Source: Chryseobacterium gleum (lineage in GTDB: Bacteria > Bacteroidota > Bacteroidia > Flavobacteriales_D > Crocinitomicaceae). From it: a stretch of 64,000 nt of DNA. Position numbers and translations under genes: made by a program. Positions within the stretch are counted from its first letter, which is position 1. Each line of letters begins with the position of its first letter. This document shows, in pieces, positions 45,094-48,065 of the stretch. The DNA is taken from contig CAMAPI010000003.1 in assembly GCA_945860065.1 (NCBI GenBank), positions 1 through 64,000 of the forward strand, written 5' to 3'. Below the pieces are notes generated by a model, which was not told the origin of the DNA, did no database searches, and saw only the letters and a program-made list of their open reading frames with translations.

Positions 45094-46269
45094 TTATACT
45101 TGCTCAAAGGAAGCTTCGTCTTTTTCTTTTTCTAAGTCTTTTGCAATTGCTTGAATTACGCCAATAGAAACACAAGCCATGATTAATGCTGATCCTCCCA
45201 TTGCCAAAAAGGGCATGTTTTGTCCGGTTACTGGGAAAACACCTGTACATACGAGCATATTGATGCTTGCTTGTGTCAATAGGTGAATTCCAATTCCCAA
45301 GGAAACATAGGATTGAAATAGATCAGTTGTTTTGAGGGCAATTTTGATGATTCTGTATAACAGAATTAAATACAATAGGGCTAAAAATGCGGCCATTAAA
45401 AATCCGAATTCTTCTACAAATGTTGCATAATAGAAATCCGCATACGCTTCTGGCAAGTACTCTTTCAATTTTCCATCACCGACACCTTGTCCAAACAAGG
45501 AACCCACATGTATGGCCAATTGTGCATTTTTTGCTTGAGCATTCGCCTGAGCGGTTTTAATGTCTTGGGAATCACTTTCCATTCGATTCGTTAAGCGATT
45601 CTTCCATGTATCGTAACGCGGAAGGAGTCCAACAGCTGGAAAAGCCAAATGAAACATCACCGCTAATGTTGCCAGTGCAATTCCGATACCGGCCATTGTA
45701 AATAATTTCCCCCACGGAACTCGTCCAATATATAATAATGCCATGCACAACAAGAACAACATAGCTGCGGTGGAGAAATTGTCAGATACGATCAAGGTAC
45801 AGATTACGCCAATGGGAATCATCAAGGGTAGAATTCCTTCTTTCCAACTCGTTAACTTATCTTTCTTTTTGACTAATATTCGACTGACATAAATGATGAG
45901 GGCCAATTTGGCAAAATCAGAAGATTGAAACGTTAACTTGACAAATGGGATGCGAATCCAACGTCCAGCACCATTGACTTCGGTTGCAAAGAACAAGGTA
46001 AAGAGAAGCAAGGCAATGGCAAGGTAATAGGAGAACTTTGCCAATTGACTAATGTATTTTGAGTTCACGCGATGGATAGCAAACATGGAAGTGAATCCAA
46101 TTACGACGTAAATGAAGTGTTTAAATAAATATTGAAAAGGTGAACCACCCTCTATTTTTACCAAAATTGGAACAAAACTATAAACCGTAACGAGGGAGAA
46201 AGACATCATGAGGATGGTAATTATCCAAATGACAGGATCGCCTTTTAAGTATTTTAAGTATTCTCTCAT
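45094..46269 (-). CDS. ftsW: SEDS-family peptidoglycan glycosyltransferase FtsW
   Basis: Polytopic; GQGVGDGKLKEYLPEAYADFYYATFVEEFGF; VTGQNMPFLAMGGSAL. Confidence 0.95.
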   Translation of the reverse strand: MREYLKYLKGDPVIWIITILMMSFSLVTVYSFVPILVKIEGGSPFQYLFKHFIYVVIGFTSMFAIHRVNSKYISQLAKFSYYLAIALLLFTLFFATEVNGAGRWIRIPFVKLTFQSSDFAKLALIIYVSRILVKKKDKLTSWKEGILPLMIPIGVICTLIVSDNFSTAAMLFLLCMALLYIGRVPWGKLFTMAGIGIALATLAVMFHLAFPAVGLLPRYDTWKNRLTNRMESDSQDIKTAQANAQAKNAQLAIHVGSLFGQGVGDGKLKEYLPEAYADFYYATFVEEFGFLMAAFLALLYLILLYRIIKIALKTTDLFQSYVSLGIGIHLLTQASINMLVCTGVFPVTGQNMPFLAMGGSALIMACVSIGVIQAIAKDLEKEKDEASFEQV

Positions 46270-46706
46270 AACAATTGTACCAAATTGAGGTAAGCAGCAA
46301 TTTTAAGGGAAACATATTCACTATCGTTCTCTGTACAAGTAAATAGCAAAGTCCCAGTTGATTTTATTTCTGACATTAATCCGTTCAACACATCTTGGAT
46401 ATCCTCAAACTCGTTTTCCAACATAAAACCAGTGCGATTTTCTCCAAAGGAAAAGATGCTTTGAAACGTATGGATTAGTTCCGGATTAGAGCTTAATACG
46501 GCCTCAATTTCCGCAGGATTCCCGACCCAAAAAATCTTGGTTGGAATTGCCTGGATAAAATTAATTAAGGCATTTTGTTCCGGCTGCATCCACGTAAACA
46601 CATCGAATCCTTTCAGTTTTCCATGAGCACGAATGCTAGTTCCCTGTGCTTCGCGCAGAGAATTATCTATGGAATATGTTTCGTTATGAATGCGTTTATC
46701 TTGCAT
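46266..46706 (-). CDS. Uncharacterised protein inside the dcw cluster, between murD and ftsW
   Basis: 146 aa ORF overlapping ftsW by 4 nt and starting just after murD, same strand and operon. Confidence 0.75.
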   Translation of the reverse strand: MQDKRIHNETYSIDNSLREAQGTSIRAHGKLKGFDVFTWMQPEQNALINFIQAIPTKIFWVGNPAEIEAVLSSNPELIHTFQSIFSFGENRTGFMLENEFEDIQDVLNGLMSEIKSTGTLLFTCTENDSEYVSLKIAAYLNLVQLL

Positions 46707-46721
46707 TTTGAATGGGACTAA

Positions 46722-48065
46722 TTATAACATTCGGACAGCTCGTTTAAACTGATTTCCTCTATCCTCATAGTTGTCAAACAAATCGAAACTTGCACAAGCA
46801 GGGGAAAGAAGAACTATTTCATCTTTTTGCGCAAGTCTGTAACCGTATGCGACCGCTTCCATGGCAGATTTAGCCTCTACAATAGTTTCTACAATTCCAG
46901 TAAATGCATCGATAATTTTTTGATTATCTTCTCCTAAACAAATAATTGCTTTTACTTTTTCACGGACAAGTGCTGTTAATTCAGAATAGTCATTTCCTTT
47001 GTCTACACCACCAACAATCCACACTGTTGGACTTTCCATGCTTTCTAGAGCAAACCAAGCAGAATTGATGTTTGTTGCTTTCGAATCATTGATGAATTCA
47101 ATTCCGTTTACCTTGGCAACGAATTCAAGTCGGTGTTCCACATTAGTGAAGTCCTCAAAACTTTCACGTACAATATCCTTACGGATTTCAACTAGTCTTG
47201 CAGCGATCCCTGCGGCAAGTGCGTTTTGGGTATTGTGTTTACCCTTTAAAGCTAATTCGTGTATTGACATGGTAAATTGTTGGTTTATATTGATTATTAG
47301 TTGTTTGTCTTTTGCATAACCACCCTGACTTTGTTCTTCTTTCAAGGAGAAAGGAGCCAAATTTACTTGGGGATTTCTTTTTTTCATTTCTGTGGAAATA
47401 ATAGGGTCATCAGCGTTAAAAATGAACCAATCATTGCGTGTTTGATTTTGTAAAATGCGGAATTTTGAATCAACATAATTCTGCATTTGATCATCGTAGC
47501 GATCTAGATGATCTGGGGTAATGTTTGTTAGGATGGAAACATGTGCATGGAAATCGTACATGTCATCCAATTGAAAAGAACTCAGTTCAATCACATACCA
47601 TTCGTGGTCACCTTCTGCCACTTGTTTCGCGAAACTGTAGCCAACATTCCCCGCCAATCCGACATCAAATCCGGCTTTTTTGAGGATGTGATGCGTCAGC
47701 ATCGCTGTTGTGGTCTTGCCATTACTTCCCGTAATACAAATGGTTTTTCCGGTGGAATAATATCCGCCAAATTCGATTTCCGAAATAACCTTAATTCCTT
47801 TCTCACGAATGGCGGTCATAACTGGCGTTTTTTCCGGTATTCCCGGAGATTTTATGATTAAATCCGCGTTTAAGATCCGGTCTATGGAATGCTGTCCATG
47901 CTCCCATTCAATCCCAAGTTCAGTAAGTTCGTCTTGGAAAACTTTTTTAATTTGTGATTTGTCCGAAATAAAAACGAGGCCTCCTTTTTGAACAGCCAAC
48001 ATAGCTGCGCCAACACCGGATTCACCAGCGCCGAGAATGACGATATTTTTATTCGAATAATTCAT
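46722..48065 (-). CDS. murD: UDP-N-acetylmuramoylalanine--D-glutamate ligase
   Basis: VILGAGESGVGAAMLA...ITGSNGKTTTAML...NDSKATNINSAWFALESM...LLSPACASFDLFDNYEDRGNQFK. Confidence 0.97.
   Translation of the reverse strand: MNYSNKNIVILGAGESGVGAAMLAVQKGGLVFISDKSQIKKVFQDELTELGIEWEHGQHSIDRILNADLIIKSPGIPEKTPVMTAIREKGIKVISEIEFGGYYSTGKTICITGSNGKTTTAMLTHHILKKAGFDVGLAGNVGYSFAKQVAEGDHEWYVIELSSFQLDDMYDFHAHVSILTNITPDHLDRYDDQMQNYVDSKFRILQNQTRNDWFIFNADDPIISTEMKKRNPQVNLAPFSLKEEQSQGGYAKDKQLIININQQFTMSIHELALKGKHNTQNALAAGIAARLVEIRKDIVRESFEDFTNVEHRLEFVAKVNGIEFINDSKATNINSAWFALESMESPTVWIVGGVDKGNDYSELTALVREKVKAIICLGEDNQKIIDAFTGIVETIVEAKSAMEAVAYGYRLAQKDEIVLLSPACASFDLFDNYEDRGNQFKRAVRML

Follow-up and report, generated by a model that had tools for sequence, protein, structure and literature searches.

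A conserved gene between murD and ftsW in Crocinitomicaceae very probably encodes a stand-alone, strongly diverged copy of the MurD C-terminal domain

Few bacterial gene clusters are as well studied as the dcw cluster. In the ligase MurD, roles have been described for the UDP-binding and ATP-binding domains (PMC3527612; PMC4816537). The E. coli enzyme binds D-Glu with its C-terminal domain (domain III), and its Lys348, Thr321, Ser415, and Phe422 touch the part of an inhibitor that mimics D-Glu (PMC3527612). The C-terminal domain is mobile, with an open and a closed state (PMC4816537). Here we describe an open reading frame (ORF) between murD and ftsW whose product is almost certainly a free-standing paralogue of this domain, made up of domain III and the linker helix that precedes it.

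We analyzed a 64,000-nucleotide stretch of contig CAMAPI010000003.1 (the window), from a genus of the Crocinitomicaceae (Flavobacteriales; family label f1). The window carries an ordinary Bacteroidota dcw cluster. Its order, read from the ORF list, is mraZ, mraW, ftsL, ftsI, murE, mraY, murD, the ORF, ftsW, murG, murC, ftsQ, ftsA, and ftsZ.

The ORF (46266..46706, minus strand) starts with ATG, ends with TGA, and encodes 146 amino acids; its reading as a stand-alone, degenerate MurD domain III paralogue draws on the ORF itself, same-slot orthologues, hhalign, the predicted fold, and dN/dS. Upstream lies murD (46722..48065, minus strand), recognized from the ORF list, an alignment with its invariant motifs, and matches to solved MurD structures. 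This murD is intact, encodes 447 amino acids from its ATG, and has its own complete domain III (46725..47171, minus strand), the paralogue of the ORF, which was located by alignment, by phmmer to residues 294-434 of E. coli MurD, and by hhalign with the ORF family. The murD stop codon occupies 46722-46724, and 15 nt separate murD from the ORF. Directly downstream is ftsW (45094..46269, minus strand), identified from the ORF list and as the constant neighbor of the ORF and of other stand-alone copies. Read directly, the stop codon of the ORF and the start codon of ftsW overlap by 4 nt in the sequence ATGA (46266..46269, minus strand). A sequence-only reading had proposed this 146-aa ORF and its 4-nt overlap, and the coordinates, orthologues, and dN/dS values bear out that description.

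In most close orthologue pairs, dN/dS of the ORF was ~0.12-0.14, and it was 0.07 in one saturated pair. The corresponding values for close pairs were 0.04-0.10 for MurD and 0.01-0.04 for FtsW. The ORF is thus a genuine gene under purifying selection, yet fast-changing. In two genomes (G178 and G238; loci L075 and L077), the ORF and ftsW share a reading frame, with a single TAG stop before the ftsW ATG. An ORF-FtsW fusion, for which a 555-aa open frame had been reported in these genomes, is ruled out by this stop codon.

The same murD-ftsW slot holds one or two stand-alone copies of MurD domain III in other families of the order (f2, f3, f4, f5, f8, f10, and f11). These copies, which we call intermediates, are mostly 155-180 aa long in the sister families. 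Among solved structures, their profile matches MurD alone, and two of four intermediates tested, the clearest cases, pass the Pfam Mur_ligase_C cut-off. A second short MurD C-terminal copy was present in 31 of 99 sampled Bacteroidia genomes, with 16 families outside this order represented, and 26 of the loci that we read in the Bacteroidia sample had the order murD, stand-alone domain, ftsW. In 45 genomes from the phylum's other classes we found no stand-alone copy; a second match in one of these genomes (G365) was a fragment lying where a contig ends. We built a tree from 55 stand-alone copies and 52 MurD domains, in which every stand-alone copy fell on the same side of a single branch (support 80/88), although this support is moderate, the tree has several long branches, and it omits the diverged Crocinitomicaceae copies. 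This topology would be compatible with a single old partial duplication of murD followed by many losses.

Some genomes contain further copies. Two stand-alone copies lie in tandem between murD and ftsW at five loci (L045 in f2; L043 in f8; L041, L042, and L044 in f4). The second tandem copies cluster in trees, and several begin with a common N-terminal stretch resembling SFTIHKxKKS. Extra stand-alone copies of MurD domain III also occur far from the dcw cluster (L247, L248, and L249 in f16; L250 in f49; L251 in f53), and those in f16 and f53 adjoin an aldehyde dehydrogenase gene.

Searches of Pfam, NCBIfam, and PDB sequences with the ORF or its family yielded nothing above cut-off, and HMMER gave no direct match of the family to MurD structures. 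Neither the window ORF nor other Crocinitomicaceae family members reached the gathering cut-off of Mur_ligase_C (PF02875). Profile-profile comparison did recover the relationship. With hhalign, the 75-member ORF family matched the intermediates with a probability of 97.5 (E 8e-12, score 73; at most 18 in 100 column shuffles) and MurD domain III with a probability of 92.8 (E 3.9e-7, score 45; column shuffles at most 22). The HMM of the intermediates outscored the MurD HMM for 70 of the 75 family members, with E < 1e-3 for 14, and in the reverse search the family HMM retrieved several intermediates. As these matches are reciprocal, we rejected the alternative of a slot ORF with no relation to the intermediates. 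The ORF extends over the linker helix and domain III only; the UDP-binding and P-loop ATPase domains are absent. We also rejected the N-terminal helix "LLEARK" as a novelty of the stand-alone copies, because MurD has a matching segment, "LVEIRKD", just before domain III. The helix thus reflects shared ancestry.

We obtained two AlphaFold models for the protein encoded in the window (pLDDT 82-84), with low confidence for the first 21-22 residues. The best PDB match in Foldseek was 3mvn, the C-terminal domain of an Mpl-type ligase (prob. 1.00, TM 0.53/0.60), followed by entries for MurE, MurC, and MurF. The E-values were modest (~4e-4 to 8e-4). Lower in the lists came other alpha/beta proteins, including isocitrate and isopropylmalate dehydrogenases. 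The ORF product is therefore predicted to adopt the Mur ligase domain III fold. On profile homology and predicted fold together, it appears to belong by descent to the Mur ligase C-terminal domain superfamily, and the Crocinitomicaceae copies appear to have diverged almost beyond recognition.

The sequence-only reading had suggested a duplicated, degenerated Mur domain III. We consider this identification right, because the hhalign scores and their shuffled controls, the reciprocal HMM matches, the predicted fold, and the same-slot intermediates all agree. Even its by-eye pairing of motifs with MurD (KIFWVGN with TVWIVGG, SIFSFGEN with AIICLGED, and TLLFTCTEN with VLLSPACAS) was essentially the register found by hhalign. 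Its further proposal, a possible allosteric or scaffolding link to FtsW, is touched only indirectly, by the retention of the gene beside ftsW where murD is located elsewhere.

To follow the fate of the active site, we mapped the residues of E. coli MurD onto the MurD of the window, counting positions manually in the alignment. Thr321 falls in NDSKAT, Lys348 in GGVDK, Ser415 in SPACAS, and Phe422 in NYED. Among 50 slot copies from the intermediates, the Lys348 equivalent was kept in five and lost in 45. Retention was higher for the Thr (39 copies), the Ser (38), and an aromatic residue at position 422 (45). The D-Glu-contacting motifs, comprising the equivalents of Thr321, Lys348, Ser415, and Phe422, are absent from the Crocinitomicaceae family. 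There, the corresponding loop has instead a conserved F-[ST]-W-x-x-P motif. We read this loop as pairing with NDSKAT without gaps, on the basis of secondary structure; hhalign places gaps there. Across the 75 family sequences, four residues (G29, K30, F37, and P55) never vary, and another four (D35, W39, P42, and W60) hardly do. Since the ORF product has neither a UDP-binding nor an ATP-binding domain, on the known mechanism it cannot ligate anything alone. From these features, we infer that it is probably a non-enzymatic part of cell-wall synthesis.

A first search of related genomes detected a homologue in 20 of 60, always in the order murD-ORF-ftsW. The family profile matched 93 of 150 Crocinitomicaceae genomes, in 10 of 23 genera of the family and including Fluviicola taffensis, whose orthologue lies at L100:1498-1965, and ftsW was directly downstream in every Crocinitomicaceae locus inspected. 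Genomes of the window's genus that lack the ORF have 5-29 nt between murD and ftsW. Absence from close relatives had been named as grounds for abandoning the proposal. The sister clade of the window's clade does lack the gene, but the FtsW tree places this as a loss nested among carriers: the non-carriers of the genus form one 13-member clade and, nested among carriers, some smaller cases. The pattern is thus one of repeated, clean loss in several lineages. Several losses have left no visible repair in the cluster, so the gene cannot be essential in all lineages. We found no genome-wide match to the ORF in non-carrier genomes of genus g1 that are 99-100% complete, and so dropped relocation of the gene elsewhere in genomes whose slot is empty.

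Genera g28 (L216 and L217) and g31 (L218) have ORFs of 146-151 aa between murD and ftsW; the family profile matches them at 15 bits or not at all, and they are probably the same gene, further diverged. FtsW splits the Crocinitomicaceae by a long branch. In g23, g29, and g30 (L211, L214, and L215), which lack the gene, FtsW is only ~40% identical to that of the window, and MurD domain III is still ~73-76% identical. A public record titled Polynucleobacter meluiroseus (CALQBB020000191.1; L199) carries dcw genes of the window's genus (genome G032, contig C191), and the titles of this record and those of L140 and L174 misfit their sequences.

Linkage with ftsW was constant in all family loci inspected, including split clusters. 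In genus g22, the gene stays with ftsW where murD lies beyond divergent genes at a distance of 6.4 kb (L221) or on a different contig (G061; L118 is also a split-cluster locus of this genus). The same holds for stand-alone copies in other families: in f49 (L245 and L252) the copy adjoins ftsW and murD is on another contig, and in f3 (L225) the copy adjoins ftsW and murD is not directly upstream. The overlapping start, the constant adjacency, and the split clusters point to FtsW, although retention beside ftsW can also reflect translational coupling alone. Mirror-tree analysis gave partial correlations with the ORF of 0.26 for FtsW and 0.36 for MurD, slightly higher for MurD and not separable.

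Given the identity of the domain, we tentatively favor a role for the MurD-derived protein as a non-catalytic adaptor or regulator linked to FtsW, a reading of its partner and effect to which we give a little less than an even chance. An old partial duplication of murD would have left a free-standing domain III between murD and ftsW, now widespread in Bacteroidia, and the domain would most likely have been kept as a protein-binding module. The protein may be made in step with FtsW through the overlapping genes, may bind FtsW or the FtsW complex, perhaps MurD or a different Mur enzyme as well, and could thereby tune or tether precursor supply at the septum. A broader reading is possible and distinctly short of probable: the stand-alone copies may form an undescribed, non-enzymatic, MurD-derived family found across Bacteroidia, founded by one old duplication and serving as a divisome adaptor between cytoplasmic precursor synthesis and FtsW.

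The main rival to an FtsW-tied adaptor is regulation of MurD in trans, with the free domain docking on MurD's first two domains or on its substrate complex to slow, stabilize, or position the enzyme. The ORF derives from MurD's own domain III, and murD adjoins the gene in most genomes. Since domain III of MurD is mobile (PMC4816537), a free look-alike could compete with it, and the mirror-tree correlation leans slightly, if inseparably, toward MurD. However, when clusters split, the gene leaves murD and stays with ftsW. Moreover, the Crocinitomicaceae proteins have lost the ancestral active-site residues and conserve a new motif, so the ancestral contacts have probably changed. We consider MurD regulation unlikely. 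Many of the less diverged copies retain NDSKAT, SPxC, and ERG motifs from the ancestral active site. This retention would suit a sensor of precursor level that has D-Glu, a nucleotide, or a UDP-MurNAc-peptide as its ligand, but loss of the D-Glu-binding Lys348 equivalent from 45 of 50 copies, and of the other motifs too from the window's family, makes such a sensor quite improbable.

Another possibility is that the gene is a decaying relic that, at most, couples translation of ftsW to the genes before it. Its fast divergence, repeated clean loss, and overlap with ftsW fit this explanation, as do the g28 and g31 forms that the profile barely reaches or misses. The low dN/dS in most close pairs and the invariant or nearly invariant residues nevertheless indicate selection on the protein itself, as a mere spacer would not keep them, and we rate a relic as slightly less probable even than a sensor. 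Lastly, the lack of Pfam or NCBIfam matches, the lack of a direct HMMER match between the family and MurD structures, and the dehydrogenases in the Foldseek lists could be explained if an unrelated orphan with a similar alpha/beta fold took the slot after loss of a MurD-derived copy. Against this stand the reciprocal HMM matches to the intermediates, the hhalign scores far above shuffles, the shared slot and similar length, and the match of the LLEARK helix to the MurD segment just before domain III, all of which make an orphan very improbable.

We found no description of a natural, free-standing, conserved copy of MurD domain III in the dcw cluster in the searchable open-licence literature. 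The domain itself is already known; as far as the open literature shows, its conserved free-standing copy inside this cluster is apparently undescribed. The class Bacteroidia thus has a conserved extra dcw member that was apparently unnamed until now, and a natural case in which an enzyme domain became a stand-alone protein, with living intermediates that range from copies recognizable by Pfam to unrecognizable ones. If the ORF product links Mur enzymes to FtsW, coupling of precursor supply to septal synthesis would be directly testable in cultured Fluviicola taffensis.

Among known proteins, MurT differs from the ORF product, a lone and presumably non-catalytic domain, in being a Mur-ligase-like enzyme that has an ATP-binding domain. 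The GatD/MurT complex resembles our case in that a Mur-ligase-related protein works with a partner on cell-wall precursors (PMC6113224). MurG of Bordetella pertussis, reported as a scaffold for cytoplasmic Mur enzymes (PMC6420597), and MigC of Acinetobacter baumannii, reported to bind MurD (PMC12208494), are functional analogies only; both are unrelated proteins and, unlike the ORF product, neither is a Mur domain fragment whose gene adjoins ftsW. The MurD C-terminal domain (PF02875, Mur_ligase_C) is homologous to the ORF product and has the same predicted fold, linker helix included. In contrast to that domain, the ORF product is free-standing, nearly all copies have lost the D-Glu-binding Lys, and the Crocinitomicaceae copies fall below Pfam detection. 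Closest of all by profile are the stand-alone copies of other Bacteroidia families, which share the slot and have a similar length. Unlike the ORF, these keep NDSKAT-like and SPxC motifs, and the clearest of them still read as Mur_ligase_C; they occur as two copies in tandem in some families and with a further, remote copy in three.
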